This document shows positions 33,420 through 55,619 of a stretch of 64,000 nt of DNA, piece after piece. Source of the DNA: Nymphaea colorata (Eukaryota; Streptophyta; Magnoliopsida; Nymphaeales; Nymphaeaceae); NCBI RefSeq assembly GCF_008831285.2, contig NC_045143.1:9991503-10055502 (forward strand), written 5' to 3'. How positions within the stretch are numbered: the first letter of the stretch is position 1; each line of letters begins with the position of its first letter. The notes under the pieces are model-generated. The model was not told the DNA's origin. It saw nothing but the letters and a program-made list of their open reading frames with translations, and ran no database searches. Position numbers and translations under genes: made by a program.

Positions 33420-36400
33420 TCAAGCCACAAAGTCATGTAACATGTGCGATGAACCAAACCTTTGTGTTCTGCTCCCCATATTCATGAACTCATAATTGGA
33501 AGTGGTTGTGCTAACAGAAGTTGAATTGTACATATCCTCCCCTTGGGTTGCCACAAAGGTTTGTGGTTCACTGGACACTGCTAGCTGGCCACCATCACAA
33601 TGTTGCAACCCCAGAGTGAGTGAAACACCACCATTGGCACGTCCCTTTGCAGTGTAAGAATCATTCTCTAATCTCCCTAAACCTGCCATTTGGTATGAAA
33701 TGAACCTCTCACCAGTATCAGAATGCAAAAGAGCATCTTGGAGAGGATTGCACTGGTCCGTACGAGATCTCTGGTCCCTGAATTTTGTGTTCCCATAGTT
33801 GCTGCTATCTTCAACAACATGAGGGCTATTATTGAGTTCATCAGCACTCGCTAGTTCGGTATCCAAGATAAAGTTCGTCTTTAATCCTCTGTTTTCACTA
33901 GCAAGATTTTTGTCTGCAGTAGTCTGTCTGTTACCCTGTAGCTCTGTTTCTTTAGGATCTCTTTTCGAATCATCATCTTTAGCTGCATTTTCAGATGATG
34001 AATTTGAATCTGCCTCAGCCTCACCAATTTCCTCTTTATACATCTCCTCAACCATTGGCTTCCAAAGTCGAACTCGGGCATTTATGAACCAATTTGACAC
34101 CTGAATAAAAATGAGATTTTGCCATAAAAAAATGTTACTAGATGCGTGCATGAATGAGAGAGAGAGTGTGTGTCAATGCATCATTTCTCTACCTGGCTTC
34201 TACTCAAGCCCGTTTGCCTTGCAAGCATTAGTTTATCAGAGTCACTGGGATAACTGGTGAAGAAAAAAATTACAAGAGGAAAGGTGGTCAAACATTTTCA
34301 AACAAATACGAATGGAAAAGAAACAATGACTGATGAAAAATCTTACGGATGAAGGAAGTGCTCAAAAAGCCAAGCACGGAGAATGGAGACGGAACTTTCT
34401 GGTAAGCCCCTCTGTGGCCTCCAAGCATGCTGTTGCAACATTCCAAGCTGTTGCAGAGCCCTCTGTTGCCTAAGCTGTTGATCTACAAACCGAAGCCGAG
34501 TTATGCCACCACCCTTGCCATTTGACGGATCCTGCTCACCAAGATTCTTTCTAGCAGCCTGAACTTGGCCACTTATTGCATCTCGCAAACAGCGGAAGTG
34601 CCTTGAAATAGTTTGAAGGGCAAGTGTGGTGTATGTTTTAGCAGCACCACATCCAGCAATTACATCAAAGGATGAAACGACAATCTGCATTTGATGATAA
34701 TATTGCTTGTATCTTCTGTCAACCTGAAGGACAACAATCATCATGGCTTCAGAAAAGTTATTCCTAGGAAGCACGGACGGTTATGCAAGATTGGGTTCTA
34801 CAGTCTGAAATTCAAACTCTATTCCATTTCATGTTGGACAGGTCCCAGATCAACTAAGAAACCAGAGACGCAAGAGGTCAAAAGGGAATATGTCAAACAA
34901 CCAAGGATGATTCCAGACAACAAGCATGATGGCACCCTTGTCCAATCATTGATCTTAGAAACAGCCAAGTAGACGATCCACCAAAAATATTATCTCATTT
35001 ATTTTTTTTTCACAGTTAATAACTTAATAAACAAAAGTCTACATGTAGGACTTTCAAACTTTTCATTTTAAACATCAGATTAGTTTTTCCCTATCAATTG
35101 CTACCTTACAAGGTTAAATTTGCTGCTTGCAAAAGTCATGTTTCCACTGAAAATGACTTAAAAGAGAATGGTGTAAAAGTAATCCCACTGAACTGTTAAT
35201 CATGGTTAAAATAATAAAGAATGGAACTGTCCTAAGAAGCAAATGATGGATAGTTTTGGAAATAAAAAACATGAACTCTTCAAGAGACACTTGTGGAACT
35301 TATTACTATGAAGAAAACAGCTGACACAAGAATCATCCATCTAATGAAGTCTAGTGTGGGGTGGAGGCCCAAAAACAAAAAAATAAATAACTCTTTTATC
35401 TACCTATGCCAAGATGTTTCAAACACTATTTATGAGGGGGAGAATGGCCTGGCATTCAGTAGCTGTTTCCCACAATATACCATTCATTTGGCCAAACTCC
35501 AACTTTCACATGGCTCGTATCTCCAACCTTATGAACAAAATCTACTTCCTTCATCTATATACTGTGAAGGTGCCAATAGGGATACCCCATTCCAAAAGGT
35601 GGAACTATTTTGAAAAAACAACAAAATAAAAGAGAAGGTGAGCTTAAGGTACTGAAGGAATAGAAAATGTTCCACTAGCTCTATAGGGGATTATTACATT
35701 TTTCCACATGGTGAGAAGTCAAAAGTGTTAAACTACACCACTGATACACAGGAAAAAAAGTTAAGTGAGATACATTTTTTAAGTACTTGCAATGGTTGCA
35801 TGCTCTTTGGAAGGAAAATGTACCGATAATCACCCATGAAACTATCATGGACGGACCAACAGGATAATCCTGAACTCAGTCAAACACAAAATGCACTAGA
35901 AAATGTCTAGTAATGCTTGGCAAATTTCAATTTGGGAGAAATGTAATAAGAGAATTTTGGATATGGATAATGCAAATTCTCTAGTTGCTGCATGCACATG
36001 CACAGACACAGAAGGGTCACATGTTGTACACACATGAAAAAAGATTTTCAGGCAACTCCGTAACATGAAAGAATGTTCATATATCAAATGCAGACAAAAA
36101 GAGTGAAACCAGTGCCCGTCTTCCTAATGAAGTCAAAAGCAGCCAGTGCAACTCTCAAGCACGACAGTAAACACTCCAAGAAAAGAAAATGATGGATGCT
36201 TCCATTGGTGCATAAGCCAATTAAGCAGTCCTCTGCACTGAATCTTTTCTGTCAAGCTAGTCCAAGGAAGGATCGAGCATTTATGCACCACCTAAAAGAC
36301 CAATAATGGTCATATCTCACACATATAAACAAGATGAATGCAATTTAAATAGAGGCAGATACCAACAGAAAACTTACCCACTACAGTCCTGTCCAAAATC

Positions 36401-39128
36401 CTCACTGCAACAGGTCGTAAAATCAGTCATGGACAAAACAATGTTTTTTATGGGAAAATCCCCAATTTGAGCAGAGTTGTCAATTTTATGGTTTTGAACC
36501 TATCTCCTATCTAAATAGGTAAAGAGGTGATAAGCACCAGATTTCCTAAATGCTTATCCGGTACCTACGTGGGGCAGTTGGCCTAGTCATGACCAAAAAC
36601 ATTTAAAGAAAGATATCAGTATCAATTTAAAAACAAAAAACAATTATCAAAAACCACACAAAGAAGAGCAAAATCCTACATATTTTACAACAAACATGGT
36701 GGTATTATTTTTAATCATAAGAAATGTTCAAAGACCATGTAAGCCAAAAAAAAATTCTTTTTTTAAAAAAATTAACACATTTCGATGTTCCAGGCACTAT
36801 AAAAAAAAACCTCTCATTTAGGAGACTTTAGGCTCATAAGGGTCCCTTCCAGGCATGTTTGAACTTTGAACTGAACATGAGGAATGAAGAACCATGTAAA
36901 CAACAAATACCCGTGATGTAAAACTAATGAATGACTCATCACAATTGTGTTACCAGTTTTCTGCAGCTTGAGCAGGCACAATTATTTTCAGTTTGAATAG
37001 ATGAAGCTATGATCCTAAACCCCGAGGACAGGCTTTTTTATTTTTTTTTTCTCTTGTCTAAAAGGATGCAATTATCCAAAATACACAGATAAATGATGAT
37101 AAGGAATGTATCTAAGGAGCTTTCTACCATTTATTTAGTTCAAATTTTTATTTCAGTTGAACTTGTCAAAGCCAGGCCTAAGAGATGGAAGAATAGTTGA
37201 CTCCACACTTCAAAACCAGCGTAGGTGACAACCTCACAATTATATAAACCATTGCCTCTAATAGATGGGAACATGTACCAGAATGATATAAGTTTCTCTA
37301 GGTTTGTTAAATTTATGAAATGGGACCGATAATTAAGAGGTCATATAAGGGCATAATAGCATGCAAAACATGCCAAGCCCTATTCACCAAAGTGAGTTTT
37401 TCCTCCTTTTTTTCCTTTGGTAACTTGAGGAAACTGCACCAAGCCCAAGAGACTTCAGTGCTTTCACAGTGGTATATAATCTTGAGGCCTAGTACCTCTA
37501 CCTTAGGGGCCTATGCCTGCTAGCACTTACACAGGGAGTTGACGTCGGAAATTGAACCACCAACAGCCCTTTTACCTGCTGGTGGTATACAACATGAAAG
37601 GGAGGGAGATAAATATGCTTACAAGCAAGAACCACATAGCATAAAAATTAAGAATCTGATCTGAGGGTCCATCAACTCTATCAGGCAATGCTGAGATGCT
37701 ATATTTTCTAAAACAGGAACAAGTTTGATGAAATATCAGGTAAAAAAATGTAAATGTACCGCGGCCCAAAACTCACTCAAATGCCTGGTCTGGCAGATCT
37801 CAATCCGTCTGTACCATGGTTCATACATAAAAAGGTAGATACCAAGACAACTGGTGGGAGGGCAGTTGGGTTTCTAAACCCCACATTTGTTCTCACTTCT
37901 CAATATGATCTCTATAGTCTGCTTCACACACAAAGGATGTTATATTACACACATGTGTGTGTGTATGTGTGTTTCACAAAGGAAATGAGAGAGAGTGAGC
38001 TAGAGAAAAAGAGAGAGAGAGAGAGAGTTCTACCTCATCCTGCATAGACAAAAGCTGTGTCAATTTTGCTTGCATCTCCTGCCTTTCAGCTGGTGACAAC
38101 TCATTGGAGACACTTTGCATCGATTCTTGAGCCAACCCAGTGGAGGATGGGTTACCAGAAGCATTTTTTCTTGTATCCATCTCACCAGTGGATGTCTGAA
38201 AGCTTTGGCCCTTGTTCGTCTCAGATCTCAAAGCATTTCGAACATTTACAACCTCATCGAGTAACTGCTGCGCTGCCTTGAGATACTTGGAATTAGTAAT
38301 AGTACTTGCAAGATTTGTCAATCCATATGAAGACCCACCCATATGCATCTGTTTTACCACTAGGGGCGGTTGAAAATTGTTTACAGTATCCCCTTTTGCT
38401 ATCTGATCAGTCCCTGAAAAGGCAGGTGGAAATTTAATGCCACTTGGTTGCTTACAACTGAATCCATCATTTTTGTGAGCTTCATTCTCCAAACTCTGGG
38501 AACCTACAAATGGAACATCAGGATTTTCATGATGAAATTGGAAAGGAGAAGCTGTAATTGCAGATGGTATGTGAGTGCCAAGGCTCAAAGATAGCCCTTG
38601 CCCTTGCACAGCTGCTACATCGGCCCGTTGCACTTGCAAACCTTGTCCACCTTGCAAGATGCTCAACGGTGTCCCCATACCCACCTCGGGGTTCAGATTC
38701 AAAGTGTTACGTGCCAAATCATTACCACCATTTATTTGTTCTCTAATGCCCAACATATTGGTAAGTGTAACTCTTGGTTGCATAAACATTTCATTCCTAC
38801 CATCCCTCCAGGTATTCAAAATGCTTTCCTCAAGGCGAGGTGCAACCAAATTGGAGATGATGCCTGGGTATGATGCAGTTGGACGTGAGACCTCCACGTG
38901 TGAATCCTGTGATACCATACTGCCAGCTGCAGGAAGTTCAACACAATTTTGTGGAGATCGAGGGTGGCCTGGCAAGTTGTTTGTATATGTACTGGCACTT
39001 GAATAGTTCATATACATCACGTGCCCTGGAAGTGCCGAATCTGGGAAGGGGTTCTGACTACCATCCTTCAGGTATAAGGTAGGCATAACATCATTTTGAC
39101 TACTGGAACCAGGGAAATATGTAGCCAT
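33420..39128 (-). CDS. BEL1-like homeodomain transcription factor, four coding exons
   Basis: Spliced protein of 737 residues. Coding exons: 38034-39128, 34347-34723, 34193-34253, 33420-34100. Exon 3 is exactly 61 nt, a hallmark of BEL1-like genes. Domains: ZIBEL-like [11 protein letters not shown] (about 179-189); SKY box [14 protein letters not shown] (280-293); BELL domain (about 351-428, across the exon 1-2 junction); TALE homeodomain (about 466-528) with the three-residue loop insertion PYPSDSDK and recognition helix [15 protein letters not shown]; a second ZIBEL motif [10 protein letters not shown] (669-678); C-terminal LHDFVA. BEL1-like proteins dimerise with KNOX TALE proteins through the SKY/BELL region and regulate meristem, organ and cell-wall development in the nucleus. 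The MATYF start and the overall layout suggest the BLH1/BEL1-like-1 type, but I cannot assign an orthologue. No broken motif was seen. The 3.3-kb first coding intron holds the left edge of a tandem duplication. Confidence 0.93.
37400..37590 (-). repeat. Possible SINE-like insertion in BEL1-like intron 1
   Basis: The minus strand holds a box-B-like GGTTCAATTTCC near 37550, but box A is weak. It begins about where homology with the duplicated copy stops, so it could be a later insertion. This call is tentative. Confidence 0.25.
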
Positions 39129-42100
39129 GACTATCTTCTCTAAAGATTGAACTGCTTGGAAGATTCAATATCATCCAAGTGTGAATGCCATACAACAACA
39201 CACCTACACAGAAGAAGTACTCAAATATGAACTGATATCATTATCCCAACCAGATTCCGGACAAATCAAAAAAATTATGGGGTGAACTGATAATGTTACC
39301 CCAACCAGATTCCTGTTAAGTCAATGAATACAGGTTGGTTCCCAGGAGCAATATTGTCTGCAAAAGCCTTGCATAAAAGGTAGGAAATGTCAGAACCTGA
39401 GATGATAGATAAGGAACATTTAAGAAACAAACGTTCCAGGTAAGAAGCCTCTTCGATTTTCAAAAGAAAGGACTATATAATGCATCAAGAAGGGAAACAC
39501 ATACACCAGAAGTTTTATATTTCCATAACAACCAGCACAAAAATGATAAAGGAAGAAAAAGCTTTTTCTTCCTTTTCTAGGCCATGCAGGAAATTGAGGC
39601 CCAAAAGCAGACAAATGAACCATCATTACCTATTACCAGTGTGTGAACCCAAAAGTGAAGGATAGAATGGAAAGGCAACCAATTCACATGATCAACATTT
39701 TCTTTTCAGATTGGCAACAAACTCAGGCAGTATAATTCCCTACCTTCAAAGAAAAAAAAGTATCAGAAATGTTCACATTTCCTATATACTGATCTTACCA
39801 AGAACTAGTCCACAAAAGCAGACAGATATTTGTATCTGAAATACAGATAAGAAGATACAGAAACTGTGCAGGAAAAAAAACCAAGTAATCCACTAAAAGC
39901 AGCAAACAATTTTATGGACCATGATGCCAAAAATGTTAACCACAAGGGCCAATATACAAAGACCAAATGAAAAACAGAAAACAATTTGCCATGAACAGAA
40001 GAAAGAAAGATGTGCCTCACAAGCAAATTGCTTCCAATCAAACAAAACGCTAGAACATAACATACTCCATGCAGCCATGAAGAAATTAAAACCTCGCATG
40101 ATGAAACATATGTATCAAACATCACAATGGCAAAAATTTGCAGGAAACAATAATTTTCCTACCTATTGGACAATTTTCCTTCCTATTTGACAAGACCATG
40201 TAGGTTAATTTTATTGCATGGTTAAGGATGAACTGATGAAGAGACAAATGTGAAAGATAGAGAACAAGCAGGTGGATCATAAGATCAATGTGGATGTGAT
40301 TACACAGGCACTTATGGACACATCACATCGTGCCATAAAATATATGTAACTTTCAAAGAATGCAAAACGAAAGGAACAAGTATCAATTCTTAGTTAGAGG
40401 TACACAGAAGCAAACCTGATGAACAATATTGCTAGGCTTGACACCATCTTCCTTGTTCACAACTTAAAAGTCGTCTGAAGCATTTGGTTACTCAGTGAGA
40501 CTTAAGATTCAACTGTCCACATTTAGAACATCAACTGCATATTCAATGCAAATAGCTCAACCAATGACTGTCCCCAATCATCTTCAGTGCTATGCAGGCT
40601 GAACTAGACGCACCTAAAAGTATACATGTGAAATGAGTACAAGCCATCGAACTGATAGCACAATGAAAGATAAGAAATTTGAAGACTGAACCATAAAAAC
40701 AGTAGAGATACACCAAAAAAAGCACTGGAACATTAATGAAGGTGTTCTTACACAGTGTCCTGCACCCAGGATCGAATAAAAATGTAAATTTTGACAGGAC
40801 TTGTATCCCTTTGTTTCAACTTCTCAACAGTACAGAGCGGTCCTGTTACTACTATTGAAAACATTCGGCCCCTTCCACCTAGCAACCCGAAAATTCATTT
40901 AGACTAACTAACATGATAATACAAAACCCTAAAAGCAAGCAAAAAAACTTTACTTGAGCTTTTAAGACCAGGCTTTAGTTTCCTTGTTCACTAATCTAAT
41001 AGATGGTGATTTCAACAGGGACAATGACAACTTTGAAAACATGCAATATGTAACAAATTTAAGCGTCCACCTAAACAGATGTTGGCCTCTCTGTGTGTGT
41101 GTGCAGAGAGAGAGATGCAAAAGGATCACTCTTTTTTTTTTTTTTAAGCTCTTAGTTTTCTATCGTTGCGTCACATTAAACTAGAAGCAGAAAGAAAATA
41201 TAACAGCGCGATAAACTTAAACCATAGTATGTCATTTTTGTTAAAAAACATTCTTTTGAGCTAAAATCGAAGAATATGCATTTATTTACTTTCATTGCTA
41301 TTGAACAGCCCATGCTACAAGATGAATCATTGCTCAGCATACTTTCCTCATCTTTGAGAATTATAAAATACAAGGCAGCTCAAATAACTAAAGGACTTCA
41401 AAAACATCAAAAGGAGAAAATATTTCACAAAAGGAAGCCGACGAGAACTGCTACAGTAATTACAATGTCAACACTGGTTCACAGTATATTCTAGAAAGAT
41501 AGCTTCAACTGGAACGACACCTCTAAACACATGACAAAAGAAAATACTGGGGAAGAAAAAAAAAACCCTAAAACGAGAGAAGAGAGAGACAAAGAGAGAG
41601 GTAACTTACTCGATTAAGACCAGACTTTGATACACCAGTTTGAGGAGAAAATGAAATTGCTCAGCCCGTTCTTCTGCAGGTGGCTAGACGGAAAAAATTC
41701 TCGGGGTAGGGTAGAGATAAGCAGGTAAGGCAGGCAGCAACGGCTTCTCGACAGACTGACGTTGATCCAGAGAGAGAAGCTCAAGAGAAAAACAATCAGA
41801 CAGAAAGAGAACAAGCAATGGAGAGAGAGAACTTGGCAGAGACCAAAAGAGATGCAGAGGGAGAGAAAGAGGCAGAGGTACGAAAATGGCGTGCCGAGAA
41901 AACGAAAGGGTAGCAGGTAAATGAAGAAAGGAGCGAGAGGTAGCCCCCTCTCTCGCTCGCTCGCTCGCTATCACCCTCTGCCTTTGTGCCTTTTGTGAGT
42001 CTAATGGGAGGCAAAAAAGAGGGGAAGTTGCAGAGGTTCCGCAAGAGAGAAGGTCCCTTAGAAGGAGACAACCCGATCCCGAGACCAACCAGAATAAAAA

Positions 42101-42145
42101 AGGATCCTGATTAAAGAACTGGCAGAAGAAACAACGCTATCATCA
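39129..42145 (-). other. 5' leader and leader intron of the BEL1-like gene
   Basis: The predicted first exon runs from about 42145 to 41610 and ends at a strong donor (ATCGA|GTAAGTTACC). A leader intron then runs to about 39204, with acceptor CTGTGTAG, and a short untranslated piece leads to the ATG at 39128. Leader introns and CT-rich leaders are usual for BEL1-like genes. The sequence around the acceptor is kept in the duplicated copy near 50.65 kb. The transcription start is inferred from the TATA-like box, so these limits are estimates. Confidence 0.5.
41684..42088 (-). other. Upstream ORFs in the BEL1-like leader
   Basis: A 134-codon ORF (41684-42088), overlapped in another frame by a 91-codon ORF (41796-42071), lies inside the predicted first leader exon. 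Both end before the donor at 41610 and would be met by scanning ribosomes before the main ATG. The peptides are rich in Leu and Ser, reflecting CT-rich DNA, and match no family I know. A role in limiting translation of the main protein is an inference. Confidence 0.4.
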
Positions 42146-42173
42146 GGCAGCAAAAGCAAAGAAACCAACATCG

Positions 42174-42185
42174 TTTAAATAATAA
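42174..42185 (-). promoter_or_regulatory. TATA-like box of the BEL1-like gene
   Basis: The minus strand reads TTATTATTTAAA just upstream of the CT-rich leader. The same motif and its surroundings are kept in the duplicated copy at 51852-51863. Transcription would start about 30 bases downstream, near 42145. Confidence 0.5.
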
Positions 42186-42287
42186 TTTTTCCTGTTCTTC
42201 CTCCCACTCTTTTTTTAATTTTAGTTTTTTCTGGTTTTCCCTTTTTTTTTTCTGGTGGGGTGGAAAGAAAGTCATACTTCACCTTTG

Positions 42288-42293
42288 CACGTG
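42288..42293. promoter_or_regulatory. G-box (CACGTG) upstream of the BEL1-like promoter
   Basis: A palindromic CACGTG lies about 105 bases upstream of the TATA-like box, inside the conserved string ctttgcacgtga. The duplicated copy keeps it at 51961-51966. G-boxes bind bHLH and bZIP factors in plants; use here is inferred. Confidence 0.45.
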
Positions 42294-42912
42294 AGATTTC
42301 ACCATGAGGGAAAAACATTTGAATTATTAATAGATGAAAAGATTCACTAATTTAGGGGTGAGGGCTCCCCACTCTAGGTGATTCAGAAAGGACACGCTAT
42401 TCTCTTGCAAAGTACCAAATGAATTCTAAATTGCGAGAAAGGCAGCCTTCCAATGCCCTTTGAGATTTGGTCAATCATGGCTCTCATTTTTTTTTTCCCC
42501 AGTGAACCTTGTGGGTCTTGATTACTTCTTCCGTGTTACTTAAAATAAATAGGTTTAAATCTTTTAGTTTTTTTAAAATGTTGAACATTTCAAGACAAAT
42601 ATATATATATATATATCGAGATCGAGAGAGAGAGAGAGAGTGATAAATGCTAAACACTTACATACTAGCAGTTACAAAACAATTTGGACTCTTAATATTT
42701 TGAAATCAATGGTTGACAAAAAATAAAGAGAAAAACAAATATAAACTAAAAAATATCCATAATTTTTTCTTACTTTTTTCCTCACAACCATCAAACTAAA
42801 AAAGGTTTAAGCATTGAGATTGTTTATCATCTATGTATCATTTAAGCGTCCAACAAACTATTAATTTTTTATATAAATTTGAACAGTGATTCTCAGAGTC
42901 ATCCGACCATCT

Positions 42913-43010
42913 AACTAAAACCGTCCAGTTTATCATAATGATTTAAAAAAAAATTAAAACCATCTAATTAAAACCATCCAATTTATCATAATGGTTTAAA
43001 AAAAAAAATA
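42913..43010. repeat. Short imperfect tandem duplication
   Basis: A unit of about 48 bases containing 'accgtccagtttatcataat' is followed at once by a near-copy, 'accatccaatttatcataat'. Each ends in a poly(A) run. Confidence 0.75.
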
Positions 43011-44289
43011 TGATGAACATTTTCATCTATATTTATTCTTACTTTTTTCTTTTTGTTTTAACTTTCAACTATGTATCTGATTTAAAGGGACAACTCATGT
43101 AACCAAAGTCATCATTCACTCACTCACTCTTCATCTTATATATATATATATATATATATATCCTTTTTTTTTGTGGGTGGTGAATTGAAATATCCAAGAA
43201 TATCTTAGATTTCTACTTGTATCAAACTATGTATAAGATAATCTAAGATATTCCAGGACATTTGAATTCACCACCCACAAAAAAAAAAAGGGTGAAATGG
43301 CATTAGAAAGAAGAAAAAAAATTAAGAAATCCAATGCCATTATCCTACCCCTCGGTCAACCGAAAGCAAATTGGACATAAGCCAGTCATACACAAAACAC
43401 AGATTCACAAAACCAGAAAGTTCTTGGAACTTCCAACTATCGTACTTCTCAACTGCACATTTGAATCGGCATAAACAAGCTAGAGAGGCATGGCGGGCTC
43501 CATGAGTTGTCGTCTTCGAAAGGCAGGCCCTGCTTCTGACCCATGCATGAGTTTCCAATTCCAGAAAGAGGAATCCGATTCCATGGTTGTTGGGGGAGGG
43601 CCTCTTGCCTCTTGGTCGGTTCAGTCCAGGGCCAATGGAGTCATTTCCTTTCCCCGTGTTTGGTTCAGGGGTTTAGGTTGGACAGGTTTTCCCTGCCACC
43701 CCCACAGATGGGGAAGTACAGTTAAGGTGTTAAAATCTCGTAGCGACCAGTTGGTAGACCTAAACCCTCCCTTAAACCATTAAAAAAAATGACAGCAGAA
43801 AGCCTCATGGTTTAGAAAGGAAGGAAATTGGGAAGTTGGTAGCTCTGCTGATTGATTCATCACACCTCCTGGCAACAGTCATGTGCTTGTATTGTCGATT
43901 TCTTGGCGTGGTTGTGGAGATAATAAAATAGAAGAAGATGTCACCAGAAAAGAAAACCTTAGGCTGCACGTTAGCAATGTAATGACCATTAAGTTCTGAC
44001 ATCTAATCACAAGCTTGAATTTGTTGTTTCTCATGAGTGCCTGCCAACACGATCTTAGCTACGATTTTTCAAATCCCACGATCGCCGGCAGAGAGAGAGA
44101 GAGAAAGATATGGGAGAAGAACCAGAATTCTTATTTAAATCAATCACCAATTGCCTTGGGCCTTGAGCTTTTTCTCCAATATTTTAAGCTCCCTGGGTAC
44201 TAGATCTGCAACCAAAAGAAACTCTCTAATGGCTTTCTTTAATATGAAAGAGAAAGAGAATCTATGGCTGCTCTCTCTCTCTCTCTCTC

Positions 44290-44332
<43 letters not shown>

Positions 44333-44830
44333 TAGATGGTGACTGATTTTTTTAAAAAAATTTAAAGTCATCAAATGTGGGCCAGATCGGATAATAAGAA
44401 TGTCGACATATCATATTCGAATCAGATATACCCTTAATTATATATGTTTTTTTGGATATTCATTTGAATCCAATTTTATAATCTGAATCTGATTTTATAT
44501 TCATATATAAATCTGAATTCGAATTCTACCAAATTTGGCTTATTTTCAAAATGTAAGAGCATATTACATAAAACATAAAGGATGTTTATGATCTGAATCC
44601 ATATCCGAATGATCAGATGTATATTTGAATCCAAACCCAAATCTGATTGGATGTCATTTCTGAAATTTGAATTCAATCTGGTTTCTTCGTCAGATATTAA
44701 TTTTTTTTTTCATATTCAATTTTTCAAAACGGTTTGGTTGGATATCTTATCCAAATCAGATATATTGGCATCCCTTTGGATAGGTTAGATCTCCTCCCTC
44801 TCACTCCATTCCTCCTTCTCCCCATGAACT

Positions 44831-44955
<125 letters not shown>

Positions 44956-45431
44956 AGTATCTTTAATGTCTAAGGGTGCCGTCTGTTTTTAGGGCCATGT
45001 AGAACCATTTTTCATGAATTCAAAACGTCAACGACATTCAAACGTTCGAATCTATATAACAAGGAAACGGTGAAAATGTATATGATCTGTTCGTTCATTG
45101 GATTTCAGAAAAGTGCCAAATGAAATGGTTTTATAAAATTTGATTCATGCATCAAAATTTTCATTCTTCTTTTAATCCTTTTAATGTTTATATTTTTTAG
45201 TTCATGGGTATAGTTGAGTAAGTTAGAAATAAGTGGCATAAAAGCATGCAACCTCTAGACGAATTTAGTAACGTAAAGTATGACACGCATATATATGCAT
45301 AGAGTGGTGGCACGTGATGTTGTTGTGTTTTAATTAGATAGTTTTCCTAATATAATGGAACAGGTGATAGAAGAATTCCCCAAAGAACAGTTGGTGCGCC
45401 TCGTGGACCGATCCCAATGAACATGAACGAG

Positions 45432-45492
<61 letters not shown>

Positions 45493-46119
45493 AAGAAAGA
45501 GAGAGAGATGGCATCTTATCATTGACGCGAGGCCATAGTGAGACAATAATAAGATCTAATGTCTTCTTATATTAATTTTTTTTTATCATTGTCATTATTT
45601 ATTACGATTGTTCTTATAGTACTTAAAAAACCTCATGAAGCAGGAAATAAATATGTTTTGTCGCGAAACAATTATATGTTGAACGGGGACATTTTCATGG
45701 CCAGTCCATCCATATCCCTGTCCCTCTCTCTTACATGAAATTTATTTTTTTTGAGGTCCTTCTACCTATACCAATTGAACTTGAAGAATAAGAAAATACT
45801 ATATGGAACCGATTGGCACAAGAGCTTGTAAACGAAGTTGATAGGTTGTCAGTTTTCATTTTGAGTGTCAACTTTTTGTACTACAAAAGAAGAGTTCTTA
45901 ATACACAAGTTGAAACACAACAGAGGCAAAACTCTAAGACATCGAAAATACTAAAAGCTTTGGTTGTCTCTTGTTAAACTGTTAATCTCTCCCTCACTCA
46001 CCCGAAAACGATCACACTACCTTAGCCAATTTGCACTAAAAAAGCATGTGGTTAGCAGTTTTGGCTGCTTGTGGCAAATGAAACATCTGTTTGTTAGCTG
46101 GACTTGAGAGGAGAACTAT

Positions 46120-46275
46120 AGTATGAGCTGGTGTGGGTCACTACCTACACTAGCCTTTCAAAACCTACATTGCATTAGAACTGGATTCGAGTTTAGCTAA
46201 ATGCGGTGTCCACATGAGATCCCAGTCAGTGATCTGAATGCCCTTTAACCAAAAAATCCTGGCTCTGCCGCTAGC
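46120..46275. repeat. Dispersed repeat with TIR-like ends, copy 1
   Basis: It shares the string 'gtgggtcact' and following sequence with 57424-57560 in the same orientation. It ends in ggctctgccgctag, while the other copy starts with agtagcggagct. These ends are inverted matches, so it may be a short non-autonomous DNA element. It is absent from the matching place in unit B. Confidence 0.45.
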
Positions 46276-46659
46276 TGGACTCCTATCTTTTGTCTACGAA
46301 TGAGTCGAAGAAGTTTACCCTTGCATACAATGTAAAGAAACCATTGGCCACGTTGTTTCATTGAGTTGTGCCAAGCCAAACCCACTTGGGTCATTTTTCA
46401 TGGCGACCTTTTTTCCAAATGTGTGAGGCATGCGGGTTGACAAGTATACTACTCGTCAGAGGTAGGGTGAAGGGTGAGAAGCTTTGACCTCTTGAAGATC
46501 TTTTCTTCCGAAAGTTGTTTCATAGATATGACGAGGACTTATCATTTTATTATTATTATTTTTTTCGGTTTTCTCTCTCAAAGAAAACCGGTGCATTGCA
46601 TGCAAATGCAATTATATAAAAGGAACAAATGTGACTTTTCTTTGGATGATTAAAAAATT

Positions 46660-46990
46660 GACATTTTGGCATGTCCGTCTCTTTCTTAAAGTTTTCCGGT
46701 GCTTTTAATTTTCGAAAGCTGCCAACTTGTTTTCCCATTTTGTTAATTATTTTTCTCTATTTATAAACGTATATGTTTATTAATTTATTTTATGTAGTCG
46801 GTAGATCCATTAAATTTTTATTGGTGTGAAGTAATATTATCCTATAAAACTAGTCGCTGACTTGACTCAGACAACCACCAAACTTTCTGTTAAAGACAGC
46901 TTCAACTTGCTATCTCTTGTCCGATAACTACCTCTTTTATCACCTCCTTCACTCGATCGGTCCACTCGTAGTCATAAATATATTGCCATT
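46660..46990 (+). promoter_or_regulatory. Strongly conserved TATA-containing block, copy A
   Basis: This is the best-kept part of the duplication; its partner is 54690-55010. By eye there are about 20 substitutions and one 5-base indel in the last 245 aligned bases. It holds CCTATAAAACTAG at about 46838-46850, followed by a leader-like pyrimidine-rich stretch. It looks like a plus-strand core promoter, but no gene follows. It could instead be an unrecognised repeat. Confidence 0.4.
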
Positions 46991-47943
46991 ATTTCAAAAT
47001 AAAGATAGATATATTGTGGCCATTATCATAAATATCACAAACCTAATTTTTGACAAATAATAAATTTATTCTAAAAGTTCGCAAATATGCGCTCAACTTT
47101 TGCAAGAAATTGTCAAAGAAAATGTCAGCTTTTAAAGAGTACATGAGCGGTGATTTTTTTATTTTTTTCAAACCTTAAGCGTTTTTTATAATTTATTGTT
47201 ACTAATATTATTGTCATTGCTGTTGTTATTATTACGAAGAGCATTACGAAAGATATAACCGGCTGGAGATGAGGCTTGAGACTTGCTCCAAAGCCTTTAA
47301 TGAAAATCCATCAACCTTTTATGAACATTTCAACGCCCTCTCTTTCCTTTGTTAATTGGTATTATTTCATCACTCACATATTTTTGGTTCCAAGGTGCAT
47401 AGCATAGTTGATCAACCTAAGTATCATATGTTTTTAGTTCGATTTTCATAGACATTATTCATTTAGACTACAAATGGTAGCATGTAAGACACTTGAATTG
47501 AAAAGTATACCGTAAAACCAGCGAGGTCCCAAAGCAACCTTTTATCTTGGAGCGGACCGCCATCACTCATTATAATTTTGAGTCCTTTATTTGTACAATA
47601 CAATGGAGAGCCCTTGGCTTATAAACAATATTATGCATGTAAATAAACAACAAGGTCCTCTAATAATAAACAAAAGTTGGTTACATCTTCCTTAAAAAGT
47701 AGTAATAATATATAGAATTAGATCATGCTGTTGGTTGTGGTCTGGATCTTATGACAATGAATAGAATGGAGAATCTCACCTTTCAAGCACATGCACACGC
47801 TTTTAGCATGGTTTTACTAGAGCCCGTGTTTCCTATCAAACTATGTTCTTTAGATATGGTTTTTGATATTATAATATAGTATGTATGATTCCTTTTACCC
47901 TTTCTTGGTGTCCATGCACGTGTTCAGACAGGAATATACCACG

Positions 47944-47944
<1 letters not shown>

Positions 47945-48010
<66 letters not shown>
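47945..48010. repeat. (AT)n(GT)n microsatellite
   Basis: About 60 bases of AT repeats ending in GT repeats, near the right edge of unit A. Confidence 0.95.
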
Positions 48011-48017
<7 letters not shown>

Positions 48018-48783
48018 TCTTTCATATATATGTGTTCTTTCATAGTCAACAATTTTGTTCATTTGATCTTTAAAGTAACTTGACACTTAGTAGCCAAAAT
48101 TAACATCCACACGCTGCAATAGATTACAAAAGAAACAAACAGAAAAATGAAAAAGATAATATTCATTCTCAAATTCCAAAAGTTTGTGCCGTTTCCGGTA
48201 TTAATCAAAAGAGATGGGGATGAATTGTGAACTGTTGGCGTTCCACTTTTACCCCTGCAGGTGTCAGAAAAAGACGAACGTCACCGCCCGTCGAAATAAC
48301 ACAACCCAAAACGGGATGACGTGGTTACGTGACGTCATCATCTAGACCTACTTTTCCTACGAATCGTGGCGACCTTTGATTGGTTAAGGGCAGTTAGGTT
48401 CTTCGAGCGCGCATTAAACCAGTGGGACCCAGCTGTGTGCGTCGTGCCGCTCGGGTACTGGAGCCGGAAGCTGGAGGACCTACTGTCTGACCCAAATCCG
48501 ACCCAAAAACTTGGTCTACTAATTAATTCATGTCCACAGCTCAAATTAAAATGATCTAGGGGTGATTTTAGACTTAAAGATATTAACACACTGGGTTTTT
48601 ATAAACATGTTTGATGCAATCGATAGATGTCTCTCTCTCATCTAGTCGTTGCTATTTTCTCTAGATATCTCGGATCCATGCCAGAAATTAGATACTCCAT
48701 ATCATCCGAAAACCATGGATTCAGTTTCTTTTGAAGATTTGAAATTCATGTATTCAAAGCTTGAGGGTTTCAGTGGGCGGGTG

Positions 48784-49040
48784 TCTAGGACTGTTTTATG
48801 ATGCTTCAAAATGATACTTTCGTCATGTTTTAACTTGCATATCAGTTTTCGATGAGCAAGCATGTCCTCCTCCCCAAAGGTCTAGGGCTGTTTTATGGTG
48901 TTTCGAAGTGACAACTCCATTATACTTCAACTTGCATATCAGTTTGGGTGAGCGAACATACCTTCATCCTTAAAAGTTTAGGGCTGTTTTATGGTGCTTT
49001 CAAGTGACACCCATGTTATGCTTCAACCTGCATATCGGGG
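48784..49040. repeat. 97-bp tandem repeat, three copies
   Basis: Copies start at 48784, 48881 and 48977, each opening with a form of tctagggctgttttatgg and containing cttcaacttgcatatc near its end. The periods are 97 and 96 bases. The third copy ends near 49040. The array lies in the spacer between duplication units A and B. Confidence 0.85.
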
Positions 49041-51851
49041 CTCTCTTTTTGTAGCATAAAAGATTGAAGTTACGAGGATTTGAAAATTGGCCGCTTACTA
49101 GCCCCCACCCCAATCCCTTTGAAAAGGGTTTAATTAAACCCTGTATTTGTGGGCATATCCAACCTTTGGGGTCTTTAAATCCACCTCTCGATCGTAGCCT
49201 TAATATTCACTTTTGACATCTACAATTTGCACAAGCAAAAGACAAGTGCTTTGTTCCGGCCCATTAGGAGCGCACAATAATTCGGCGACTCAAATAAAAA
49301 GTATAAACGGTTTCAATCTAATCTGCAAGGCAAGCATGGAAGAGATTCGGTTTATTAAACTATACAAACTAGAAGATACCATTGATCTTTTCTTTTTGTT
49401 TCTTTCCTGCAATGGCAGTAGTACATGACTGATAAAGAGAAAAACAAATAGGGAGATCAGACTTTTTGAGTACTTGCAAACATGTCCTGATAAGGCCCCA
49501 TGAAACTTTTATGGATGGACCAACAAGGTAATCCTCAACTCAGTTAGCCCAAAATGTACTTGAAAATGTCTAGTAACGCTTGGGTGTTTCAGTTTGGGAG
49601 AAATGTAATAAGAGAGTTTTGAATGTGAATAATGCAAATTCTCTTGCGGCAGGGTGACGTACATGCATGCAAACACACATACGAAAACATTTTCAGGCAA
49701 CTGCCTGATGTGAAAGAACATTCATATGCCAAATGTAGACATAAAGAAGAACCACAGAAAATCCTACATATGTTACAAACAATATTGTGGTATTATTTTT
49801 GAAAATAAAATAAAAATGTTCAAAGACCATGTAAACATTTTTTTTTTAATTCAACATATTTAGTTCAATTGTATTTCAGTTGAACATTTCGAGACAAAAT
49901 CTTCATACCATATAAACCATGGGCTTCAGTAGATGGGGACCATGTACCAGAATGAGATAAGTTTGTCTAGGTTAGAGATTTTTATAAATGAAACCGTTAA
50001 TTGAGAGACCATATAAGGATATAACTGCATGCGAAGAATATGCCAAGACCCATTCAACAAAGATAAGTTCTCATGACATCAAGATGTCTGATTTAAATTA
50101 TATCAAGATATCATATTCAATCTCATAAACTAATTAAAGGGAAGGGAAACATGTGAGTCTAGATCAAGTGATCAACCACCATTAATGGTTACACATTACA
50201 TGTGCACACAAAATTGAATGTATTATCTAAACAGAAACTTGATTTGGAATACCATCTCAATATGCGCAGAATCACATAAACATTCTATTCTCCCTTAATC
50301 TAAAAACTAGTGCTCTAAAAGAACATCACTCGACTAAAAATGGCTCAAAAGGTAAACCAAAAACCTTGTGCATGTACATCTGGAGCATAAACACAAATGA
50401 CAAGAAGAAAACAAAAAGTTAGAAGGACAAGATAAAAAGTCATGAACTCGGATTAAGTAAATCAGGTCTTAGAATCCATAAGAAGGGAAAACCTCTTTAG
50501 CACCAAGCTTCCCTGCGACACATTTTAAAATTAATAGAAACAAATAGCTAGCAACAATGCAACAACTTTGACTACTTCTTTGAAGATTTAACTGCTTGGA
50601 AGTTTCAGTTGAGTCAAACATTAATGCCATACAACAGGATACCTACACAGAGCAAGTACTTGAATATGAACTCAAAATGTTATCCCAACCAGATTCCAGC
50701 CAAATCAATTAAATGAATGAGGCGTGAACTGATAATGTTACACCAACCAGATTCCTGTTTAGTGAATGAATACGGGCTGGTTCGCAGGAAAGAACAATAT
50801 TATCTGCAAAAGTAAAGTAGGATACGTGAGGCATTCAGATGATAGATAAGGAACATACAAGAAACAAATATGCCCAGTAAGAAGCTTGTTCATCTTCAAC
50901 AAGAAAGGAATATTTAATGCATCGCAAATGGCAGCATATGCACCAGAAATTTTATACTTTCCATCACAACCAGCATGGAAGATGACAAAGGAACGCATCA
51001 AAAGGTTGCTCTTTCTTGTCTAGGCATTCAGGAAATCAAGGTTCGAAAGTGGACGCAGGACCCAAAGATAGGATAGAAAGGGAAGAGGTCATTACCTAAA
51101 GCACCACTACTCCTAAAAGAAACAAAAACAAAACCCGAAACAAAAAGTAGTCAGAAGTCTCAGTTCAAATCAATGAAACTCAAAAAATCTCAAAATAGAG
51201 AGGTAAGTCATTTTTTCTAAGGCTCTAGCACAACACCTAAAACCCACAAAACCCGCTTCCATTATCAGCCTTCCATTGAACAGAGAGAGGCAAACATGGA
51301 TACCAAGAAAAAAAAAAAAAGGAAAACAAGTTGGTATTCCAAAAATTGACAGAGGACTCAGAAAGAGAGCAACAAAATTTTCAAAGTCTCATTTGCAGAA
51401 CCCCACAAAAGACAGAGCTGTCTCAAACCTCCCAAAGAACAACTGAAAATCGCACATGGGCAATCATCACCAGAAAACACCAAAAAACGATTATTGGAAC
51501 AATCAATAGATAAGCCCAGAACAAGGCCAAAAAAACGTTTGAAAAGGAAATCCAGTATTTCTCCAGCATGGACAAAAATGTATGAGGTTGGTGTTCATAA
51601 AATTGGCAGAAAAGAATTTTCCAGAAAGAAAGGCACATACACACTATCACCCTCTGTCTTTAATGCGTCTCGTGGGTGCAATGGGAGGCAAAGAAGGTGG
51701 GGAATTTGCAGAGGTTCCTCAGGAGAGAAGAACCCCTTAAAGGAGACAACCCGATCCCAAGAACACCGAGAATAAAGAAAAGGTCGTGATTAAAAAACTT
51801 ACCTAAGAAACAAGGCCATCATCACGCAGCAAAAGCAAGGAAACCAACATC

Positions 51852-51966
51852 ATTTAAATAATAATTTTCCCCGTTTTTCCTCCCTTTTTTTCTCCACTCT
51901 GCTTTCCTCATCTTTTTCTTTTTCCTGGCGGGGAGGGAAGAAGGTCATACTTCATCTTTGCACGTG
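51852..51966 (-). promoter_or_regulatory. Retained promoter copy in unit B
   Basis: The stretch holds the duplicate TATA-like motif (51852-51863) and the duplicate G-box CACGTG (51961-51966). Spacing and neighbours match the intact promoter at 42174-42293. There is no coding sequence downstream for it to drive. Confidence 0.45.
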
Positions 51967-53644
51967 ACATTTCACCGTGAAGGAAAAGCACTCAGCGTTA
52001 TTAATAGATGAAAAGGTCTCACCAATTTTGGGATGAGGGTTCTCCATCCAAGGAGATTACAGAAGTACACACTATTCTCTTGACAAGTAGCAAATGAACA
52101 CTAAATTTCCTGAAAAGCAACCTTCCAGTCACCTTTGGTCAATTATGGGTGTCATTGTTCCCTAGCCACTCTTACCGGTCTTGGCTAGTTGCTTCAGATT
52201 ATGTGAACACTTCAAATCTTTTAGCCTTTAGAAAATATTGAACATTTTACATACATATATATACAGATAGAACAATGTTGTTGAATGGTTAAAATTTAAC
52301 AGTTCATCCTTAAAAATACTTTAAATCATTGTTAAAGTCAACATAAACTGTTGGCCCATCCTAAACCGTAACTAATGATAATTTAGTGACACTTTTTTAA
52401 AGACAAATTTTTAAATCTTAATCACAACATTCGGCACACCATAACATAGTGATGTGCATGAGTGTCAACCAGTGAATTCCCACTGGTTGAAGAGATAAGC
52501 TTCCATCTGTATATTATGTTTTTCATCAGGTGGCTGTAGCTAGAGTGAATTCCCCACTATATCAGGAACAAGCTTAAATGCAACTAAGATCTTGGATATT
52601 CCCGGATATTTGAATTTCCCACAGACAATGAGAAGGTTGAAAAAGTATTTGGACATCGTGCAGTCATATACAAAACATTGGTTCACAAAACCAGGAAGTT
52701 CTTGAGCTTCCAATTGTACATTTGAATGGACAGAAACAAGATCACGTATGGCCGGGGCCATGACCTGTCATCTCCGAGAGCAGGTCCTGGTTCATGAGTT
52801 TCCAAATGCAGAAAGAGGAATCGGATTCCATGGTTGATGGGGAGGGCCTTTTCAGTCAGTTCAGTTCAGTTCACAAATGCAAGGGCCAGTAGTCATTTCC
52901 TTTCTCGTGTTTGCTTTAGGGTTTAGGTTGTCCCAGTTTTTCCTGCTACCTTCGTAGTTGGGGATGTACAGTTAAGGTGTTAAAATCTCCAAACAACCAG
53001 TTGGTAGACCTAAACCTTTCATGAAACCATAAAAAATTTAGCAGCAGAAATCCTAAGGTTGCATTTGATAGCTTCAAAGATTCGAGGTTGCATAAAAAAT
53101 GTGTTTTATGAGATCCTCAGTTTAAACATATCGAGGATATCAGGATCTCAGTGGCATGAATTTGAAATCCATTTTCTCATGAATTCGCCCATGTTGATAA
53201 ATTTGAAATGTTCAAATTTATGCAATATTAATAAGATCGTGGAAATGCGATTGGTTCATTCGATGTTAGAAACGTAGTGTCAAATAAAATTATTTTGCAA
53301 GGTTTGATGCATGGATCGAATATTAATTTTCTTTGGCCTTTCAGATGTAGGCACGCTGAGTTCATCCAATATTACTATAATAATAATAATAAATAAAAGT
53401 TAATGCTATCAGATGTTGGATGGTTAGCATCTAAAGATTCATCGCTAAAAGACCAAATTGTCGAAAAAGTTATCATGATCTATCATCACTTTATAAACCA
53501 TTGGTAATGCTAATATAATTATGATTAGTTTTTAGTAACAAATTCTTAAAATTTAGCCATCCCACAAGATTATGTGTCCAGTAAAATTGAATCGACATGT
53601 CATTACATTGGGCAGCTGTGATTTCATGATGGCTGAAGGATTTT

Positions 53645-53787
<143 letters not shown>

Positions 53788-54204
53788 CCGATCCTTATGG
53801 TTATGAATGAGCAATCAAAGGCACGATATAATCACATGATGTCTTTTTCATCGACGGCATTACTAAGACAATAATAAGAACTACTATATTATTTTTGTCA
53901 TCATTGTTATTATTTATTACCTTACGTCTTATACTTGGAAACCTTATGTGTCACGAAATAAATATACTTTGTCACGTCAGTAGCAATTACATGTTTGATG
54001 GGGACAATCACGACACAAGTGTGAGGCAGATAATGTACCGTCAAGATCCATCCTGGTTTGTGGGGTCTCCACCAGTCCATATTGGAAAAGTTGTCGATGG
54101 ATCGAATGTACTAAAAGTTGTCTAAGCAAAGGCACATTAGTTCCAAGATATCACATCATAAACTTAGCATCATCTCTATCTATCTCCCTCTCATATTTCC
54201 TTTG

Positions 54205-54257
<53 letters not shown>

Positions 54258-54689
54258 CGACAAGGGTCATAAATTGTATTAAAGCAAGCGTTATTGCTCC
54301 ATAAACTGTCGCTAATGTCAATATAGTGACGGTTTTTTAGTATGATTGTTTTTTCCAAATTTTAGCTACTCGACATTTAGGAAATTGAATTGTCCTAATA
54401 AAAAAAAGCCCCTAAGACATTAATTTCGAGTTTGAGGCTTGCTTGTTCTATGTTAAGAACAAAGCTACCTGCCTTGAAGCAAAAAAGAAATACCTCTCTC
54501 TCTCTCTCTTTGCCAATTTGTTTTATAATTTCGGTGATATCTTATCACTCTTTTGGTCTATATAATTAACTTTTAAAATTTTGTCGGCTCTTTTTCAAAA
54601 GAAAACAAATTACAGGATGGCATACTGTTGACGCCAGTGCATTCCATGCTAAATAAAGTGGGACTTTTTCTTGGATTATTAGAAAATTG

Positions 54690-55010
54690 GCATTTTGTCG
54701 AACTTGTTGCTTTTTAAAAGTTTTCCGGTTCTTTTAATTTTTTGAAAGCTACCAACTTGTTTTCCCATTTTGTTAATTATTTTTCTCTATTTATAACCGT
54801 ATATATTTATTAATTTATTTTAGGTAGTCGGTAGATCCATTAAATTTGTATTGGTGGGAAGCAATATTGTCTTATAAAACTAGTCGCTGACTCAGACAAC
54901 GACCAAACTTTCTCTTAAAGACAGCTCCAACTTGCGATCTGTTGTCCGAGAACCACCTCTTCTATCATCTCCTTTACTCGATCGGTCCACTCGCACTCAT
55001 AAATATGTTT
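54690..55010 (+). promoter_or_regulatory. Strongly conserved TATA-containing block, copy B
   Basis: Partner of 46660-46990. It keeps CTTATAAAACTAG at about 54870-54882 and the downstream leader-like stretch. A 94-codon frame at 54942-55226 starts inside it but has no family signature and is not kept in copy A. Confidence 0.4.
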
Positions 55011-55209
55011 CTTTTAAAAAGCATAGTTGGCAATCTTCAGAATTGCCCGAGTCTACTTGGATCGCTTATAAATCTGGTCAAAAGACAAGGTTTAGGCGCA
55101 GTAGAACCTGACTCTGCCCAACTCGTTCTGACTCACCTGGAATCGTACAATTCAGCTGTAATAAAAATACATTATGATTATTTGAATACTCGACCGAGTC
55201 AACAAGTCA

Positions 55210-55280
55210 ACTCCCTGACCCAGTGACTTGGTCATCTACCTATCCCTGACCCAGTGACTTGATCATCTACCTATCCCAGT
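55210..55280. repeat. 31-bp tandem duplication
   Basis: The unit beginning ccctgacccagtgacttggt and ending catctacctat is repeated once with a single difference (ttggt versus ttgat). A partial third start (cccagtcac) follows. Confidence 0.85.
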
Positions 55281-55619
55281 CACGGCTTTATCAATTATGT
55301 TCAAAAAAATAAATATGTTATTGCTATTATTATAAATATTATAAAAAGACACCTAGTTTTTGGGTAAATAACAAATTTCCGTTCTAACTTCTAAGACTTG
55401 GCAATTGTGTTCTTAACTTGCGATAGAAATGATAGAAGAACGACCTGTTGAACAAAAAAATCGTCAATTTGTACTATAAATGGCAAAAGCGCCTCTTGTA
55501 ATACGTATAATTCCCTTTTATCCTTCTTGCCCATGGTGCACAAGCACATGCACATGCACATGTGCAGATACATATATATACAGGAATATATGCACCTTAC
55601 ACTTTTGGACTGCCATAAT

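Follow-up and report, generated by a model that had tools for sequence, protein, structure and literature searches.

Background

Plant homeobox genes with tandem duplications have been described in maize and barley, and these cases can be set beside the locus analyzed here. In the maize allele Kn1-O, a local tandem duplication is found at the TALE homeobox gene knotted1, as is the case at our locus; Kn1-O is however a dominant mutant allele, whereas here the duplicate is old and diverged and its outer copy has no detectable coding sequence. The 16-kb tandem duplication of maize Bif3, at ZmWUS1, resembles our case in that a partial gene (promoter, first exon and part of the first intron) lies in the tandem segment. 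The Bif3 duplication alters cis-regulation; as a mutant allele it retains an intact coding copy and its effect has been measured, unlike the ancient and coding-less duplicate found here. Barley Kap1 (Hooded) also carries a noncoding duplication in a homeobox gene, the knox gene BKn3, but this is far smaller (305 bp), lies within intron IV and has a known phenotype. A sequence-only reading of our locus had called a local tandem copy of a developmental regulator's control region unusual, which these documented cases show to be overstated.

Unprocessed gene relics (duplicated pseudogenes) retain intron and flanking sequence, with the coding function lost. The outer copy described here differs from the usual relics in keeping, as far as can be detected, noncoding parts only, its coding sequence being gone rather than broken.

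Results and discussion

The intact gene and the tandem units

The window, i.e. the whole 64-kb stretch analyzed here, is C6:9991503-10055502 of the Nymphaea colorata genome (407.8 Mb, 783 contigs). It contains an intact BEL1-like gene, the 5' half of which constitutes unit A, and a second unit, B (Table 1). The four joined coding exons of the gene give 737 codons without an internal stop. Pfam POX scores above the cut-off in exons 1 and 2, and Homeobox_KN reaches 18.7 bits in exon 4 against a cut-off of 24, which we attribute to the last exon having been scanned alone. The gene of unit A thus shows the POX domain and TALE homeodomain of a BEL1-like gene in an open frame, the homeodomain match being sub-threshold.

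Table 1. Coordinates of the gene, the two units, their principal blocks and related repeats on other contigs
Feature	Position	Strand	Remarks
BEL1-like (POX + homeodomain) gene, intact	33420-39128	-	Pfam POX, open joined frame
Coding exons of the gene	39128-38034, 34723-34347, 34253-34193, 34100-33420	-	splice sites read by eye
Unit A: part of intron 1, coding exon 1, 5' UTR, leader intron, core promoter, upstream flank	35734-47120	-	continues weakly to 47.94 kb
A block: 5' UTR, acceptor, end of leader intron; finishes at the A of the ATG	39128-39622	-	B 50569-51064; 80.9% identity over 482 columns; part common to the C1 paralogue
A block: core promoter and leader start, TATTTAAA, G-box at 42288	41968-42590	-	B 51644-52247; 79.6% over 597 columns
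A block: upstream segment	43371-43812	-	B 52649-53060; 82.4% over 403 columns
Best preserved long block, A copy	46627-46991	-	B 54656-55016; 87.5% over 360 columns
Spacer between the units	48008-49421	.	1.4 kb, carries a ~96-bp tandem repeat
Unit B: collinear copy without detectable coding sequence	49422-55440	-	continues weakly to 55.58 kb
Expected exon 1 and start of intron 1 of B	50070-50568	-	499 bp, no significant similarity to A
Transposon-like repeats with unit-B leader pieces	C8 ~13058932-13061076; C2 ~35859.0-35862.2 kb; C7 ~3192.7-3194.6 kb		

Simple repeats were masked and the window was compared with itself. At a threshold of E≤1e-4, 14 rows were obtained, eight of which are A-to-B matches on one collinear, same-strand, broken diagonal, as the sequence-only reading had led us to expect. 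Of the other six, one is a shifted A-to-B match inside one of the eight, two are pairs at 5.7-10.3 kb, two are palindromes matching themselves and one is a local tandem repeat. When the scoring was made more sensitive and the intervals between neighbouring blocks were searched, 12 collinear blocks on the same strand were found (at least ten had been proposed), all of them noncoding and ten with E of ~1e-10 or less. In detail, the aligned bases amount to 3072 of 11387 in the main chain of A and to 2987 of 6019 in that of B, and the offset between the units falls along the chain from 13.7 to 8.0–8.3 kb. The near limits proposed earlier, 35.77 and 49.47 kb, move to 35.73 and 49.42 kb. Intron, leader, promoter and far flank are indeed covered, and the extent can be stated more precisely as the 5' half of the gene, from part of intron 1 to ~5–6 kb upstream of the promoter.

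In 60 Markov simulations of B a total of 41 hits arose, the best at 39.7 bits, compared with 57–396 bits for the ten main blocks. Two blocks, the smallest ones at 37132-37167 (37 bits) and 43241-43274 (34 bits), score at noise level and are supported by their position in the chain. Among five 8-kb control stretches, two gave no match, two gave one weak match each (E=0.006 and 3e-4), and the fifth, which overlaps unit A, matched mainly itself. The farthest pair, ~47.88–47.94 and ~55.50–55.59 kb, has a local score of 22.5 that was equalled in 3 of 2000 simulations; the outer limits of ~47.94 and ~55.59 kb given by the sequence-only reading are therefore weak yet probably real. One further row under sensitive scoring is on the opposite strand and lies within a palindrome (43171-43222), and an inverted-repeat search of 35–57 kb gave TA-repeat pairs only among the 25 of 876 that were listed. 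Adjacency, shared orientation and collinearity, as expected of a tandem segmental duplication, were thus all found.

A MITE-like palindrome at 43173-43278 in A is retained in part in B, suggesting that it is probably older than the duplication and that DNA without obvious function has survived as well. Apart from the G-box at 42288 (51961 in B), motif scans of A and B were uninformative, and no Rfam family was matched in the window at gathering score. Segment 44394-44774 of A has no counterpart in B and resembles sequence on C13, C1 and C2. Part of the extra length of A is probably a repeat insertion at this place, and the shortness of B, which is indeed about half as long as A, is not due to deletion only, as had been supposed.

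Unit B and the spacer

The similarity between A and B ends at the ATG, which is lost in B, restarts within intron 1 and stops abruptly at 49422. Compared with exon 1 and the beginning of intron 1 in A, the segment 50070-50568 gave a best match of 16 bp (E=0.94). Likewise, a tblastn search with the protein of the gene, the intact gene being masked, gave no convincing match elsewhere in the window (a single one, with E=0.57, at 0.5 kb), and no coding remnants of exons 1–4 were detected in B or in the spacer. No clear trace of exons 2–4 or of the 3' UTR was seen between A and B; the spacer has a 31-bp match to 32.0–35.7 kb at E=0.043 and no significant match to the upstream flank of B. In structure, unit B thus corresponds to an unprocessed pseudogene or gene relic, with intron and promoter blocks kept and coding sequence undetected.

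The ~96-bp tandem repeat of the spacer is present in about two to three copies at 48783-49036, and a palindrome, TGACGTCA, lies at 48330. Near 51802 (minus strand), B has by eye a donor-like CTTAG/GTAAGT just downstream of the conserved TATTTAAA, at which place A has CTTCTGCCAG; it is possible that this site is the end of the first exon of a B transcript.

Copy number in the genome

The sequence-only reading had itself raised a dispersed repeat family as an alternative. Four genome queries were run, reaching six of the 12 blocks (the first in part only); the blocks in 37132-37398, 43241-43812 and 45005-45691 and the spacer lay outside them. Common words were skipped in this search, and repeat counts are lower bounds. 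In detail, query 46600-47140 returned A, B (46627-46984) and 40 bp on C10, the B counterpart of 47001-47120 being missed. Query 41900-42600 returned A, B and 124 bp on C7. Query 39128-39700 gave, besides A and B, matches of 227 bp on C7, of 119 bp on each of C2 and C8 and of 76 bp on C12, and also an inverted self-match of 28 bp. Finally, query 36000-37000 returned A, B in two pieces, at least ten further places around 36.65–36.80 kb and 44 bp on C3. The ~90-bp intron block 36656-36742 belongs to a dispersed repeat family. The long blocks that were queried occur as the A-B pair plus short pieces elsewhere and are thus no dispersed repeat; this one block excepted, A and B as wholes lack the many copies of such a repeat or of a transposon, and the homology of the long blocks queried is specific to the pair.

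Divergence of A and B, and the outgroup paralogue

After realignment, the 12 blocks comprise 2914 ungapped columns with 81.4% identity. K80 distances range from 0.10 to 0.31, seven of the 12 lying at 0.20–0.24. As local alignment favours well preserved stretches, the true divergence is probably higher. Identities are heterogeneous when all blocks are considered (p=0.034) and homogeneous without 46627-46991 (p=0.40, 80.5% identity), which fits a single duplication event. At ~20% divergence, allelic haplotigs or a false duplication by the assembler are unlikely.

A POX search of the genome gave 23 matches in 12 places. Three paralogue loci were compared at length, and only C1:16671143-16674924, the C1 paralogue, matches A in segments that are also present in B, i.e. 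41952-42213 (68.7%), 43623-43783 (68.1%) and a stretch just before the ATG. Its protein identity is 46–51%. No match was found between intron 1 of A and intron 1 of this paralogue, so that the outgroup covers three segments only, and the block at 46.6 kb was not found in the 30 kb around it. Isolated matches to other paralogue loci, e.g. of 44463-44774 to C13 and of 44394-44459 to a second C1 locus, are taken to be repeats, since this sequence is also present on C2. A second BEL1-like gene, with one TAG in a matched frame, is located in tandem ~8–9 kb behind the C1 paralogue (C1:16680258-16682601).

Over 345 codons of exon 1, Ks between A and the C1 paralogue is 0.83 (NG86) or 0.90 (YN00), which exceeds the A-B distance of ~0.2; the tandem duplication, although old as had been proposed, therefore postdates the divergence of the C1 paralogue. 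Of 702 three-way columns, 381 are the same in all three sequences and 180 set C1 apart from an identical A and B; a change private to B occurs in 59 and one private to A in 49, and the remaining 33 have three different letters. Calculated by hand from these counts, A and B differ at 20% and A and C1 at 37% of the columns; the distance between A and B equals about one quarter of the paralogue Ks or, after correction for multiple hits, nearly half of that between A and C1 in these segments. The private changes of B and A (59 versus 49) do not differ significantly (p=0.39; p=0.88, 0.25 and 0.52 for the single segments), and a 2:1 excess of changes in B is disfavoured (p=0.010).

Judged by its Ks, the C1 paralogue may stem from a whole-genome duplication. 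According to a genome study (PMC7015852), duplicate genes of Nymphaea colorata peak at Ks ~0.9 and a split is dated to 147–185 million years. If the whole-genome duplication lies near this split, the tandem duplication would, very roughly and by hand calculation, be 30–85 million years old.

The best preserved long block

Of the 360 columns of the long block at 46.6 kb, 45 are mismatched (binomial p=3e-4 relative to the other blocks, uncorrected for its choice from 12). Its core, 46727-46826, has 4 mismatches in 100 columns, which was matched by 8 of 2000 permutations; with the block removed, the best remaining 100-column window is unexceptional (1185 of 2000). Across the block the mismatches per overlapping 100 columns are 12, 10, 7, 5 and 14, a profile that resembles a peak rather than a plateau, though not decisively. 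Equal similarity is seen in two short intron blocks (87.4% of 87 columns and 91.2% of 34), which are too short for the permutation test. A protein-coding function was rejected, the reading frame being broken by a 1-bp indel, as was a structured RNA (folding z from -1.9 to 0.8 in eight foldings). CCAAT and TATAAATAG occur on the gene strand in both copies, which carries little weight in AT-rich DNA. The better preservation of this block may reflect constraint or gene conversion.

Fragments of the locus on other contigs

Fragments on C7 are closer to B (84–85%) than to A (76–78%) and include B sequence without a match in A; no BEL1-like coding sequence was found by tblastn in the 30 kb around them. 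In two three-way alignments, B and C7 share 32 and 23 sites, A and C7 15 and 4, and A and B 5 and 5, and the C7 copy is therefore derived from the B side. Over 1.9 kb, the copies on C2 and C8 show 98% identity. The C8 copy has terminal inverted repeats, GGGCCCGTTTGAT and ATCAAACGGGCCC, with TTA on both flanks. PIF/Harbinger elements have terminal inverted repeats and a 3-bp TTA/TAA target duplication, and its inverted ends and TTA flanks make the C8 repeat a candidate PIF/Harbinger-like element that has captured a gene fragment. B-like DNA probably entered the transposon-like repeats after A and B had separated; capture of gene fragments by plant transposons is described in two studies (PMC8903248, PMC2572040).

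Exon-1 coding sequence in two pieces, 82–86% identical to A, is located at C12:15359140-15361043, together with leader-intron sequence 39685-40029, which is present in A yet absent from B. A repeat of at least 3 kb on C12, C163 and C1, with copies 91–99.7% identical and five on C12 spaced 13–18 kb apart, joins the intron-1 pieces 36646-36804 and 37775-37953 directly, whereas the window separates them by 970 bp. A three-way test of the intron piece at 36.65–36.76 kb gave 10 versus 7 versus 7 sites, which points to no single source. At the end of the window, 61763-64000 matches C7:3198356-3200690 at 67% over 2.35 kb, an interspersed repeat.

Origin and fate of unit B

We consider it probable that the locus is an old partial tandem duplicate, the outer copy of which is now a coding-less promoter/leader relic. 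A local tandem duplication would have copied the 5' half of the BEL1-like gene, comprising part of intron 1, the ATG exon, leader, promoter and ~5–6 kb upstream, or else a larger segment would have been duplicated and trimmed afterwards. A, which adjoins the coding exons, would have remained the gene, and B would have lost its coding exon and any 3' exons, changed its length by indels and persisted as a relic. A special case of this history, to which we give somewhat less than an even chance, is that a complete second BEL1-like gene was duplicated and its 3' part deleted later. The abrupt beginning of B in intron 1 would agree with this, as would the second gene in tandem on C1, since tandem copies evidently occur in this family here; the lack of any clear exon 2–4 or 3' UTR trace between A and B, beyond the 31-bp similarity at E=0.043, argues against it. 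That the A-B matches are instead copies of a dispersed family lying in order by chance is highly improbable: block 36656-36742 does recur in at least ten further places and B-like pieces exist on C7, C2 and C8, but for the long blocks queried, long copies were found in A and B only, the 12 blocks keep a single order, several have matches at corresponding gene positions in the C1 paralogue, and the C7 copy descends from the B side.

Two aspects fit less well with a relic. Freely decaying beside a constrained gene, B might be expected to change faster than A, which is not detectable in the segments shared with C1, and the block at 46.6 kb is preserved above the other long blocks; nor does the relic reading account for the 1.4-kb spacer at the junction. 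The first two aspects might point to B as a retained regulatory module, either a shadow enhancer or an alternative noncoding promoter, kept by selection after the coding sequence was lost. The promoter-leader, upstream and pre-ATG segments are common to the C1 paralogue and show no detectable acceleration in B, and the block at 46.6 kb, with its well matched core, has neither a kept reading frame nor unusual RNA folding and is found only in the A-B pair. We nevertheless regard such a module as unlikely, as the A-B identity in the C1-shared segments (~80%) is not above that of other blocks, the two short intron blocks, one of them part of a repeat family, are equally preserved, gene conversion between neighbours could yield the same patch, and the block was not found in the 30 kb around the C1 paralogue. 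Under the relic reading, if B is active at present, it would most likely serve to start noncoding transcription or to supply A with additional cis-regulatory DNA.

Conclusion

An inert B would be no more than an ordinary relic, and we take it to be mostly that, except for a single well preserved stretch with a possible role in regulation. Gene fragments carried by transposons also seem to have come from B. Should B, against our expectation, be a gene-less regulatory duplicate under selective retention, with the ancestral promoter, leader start and acceptor kept, a rate of change no higher than that of the intact copy and a distal element shared with A that is far better preserved than its surroundings, it would represent a shadow control region, or a noncoding upstream promoter with transcripts running or splicing into the intact homeobox gene. 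A duplicate of the control side only, located beside the intact gene and accompanied by an outgroup paralogue in the same genome, offers a natural setting in which to ask if promoters without their gene decay or persist.
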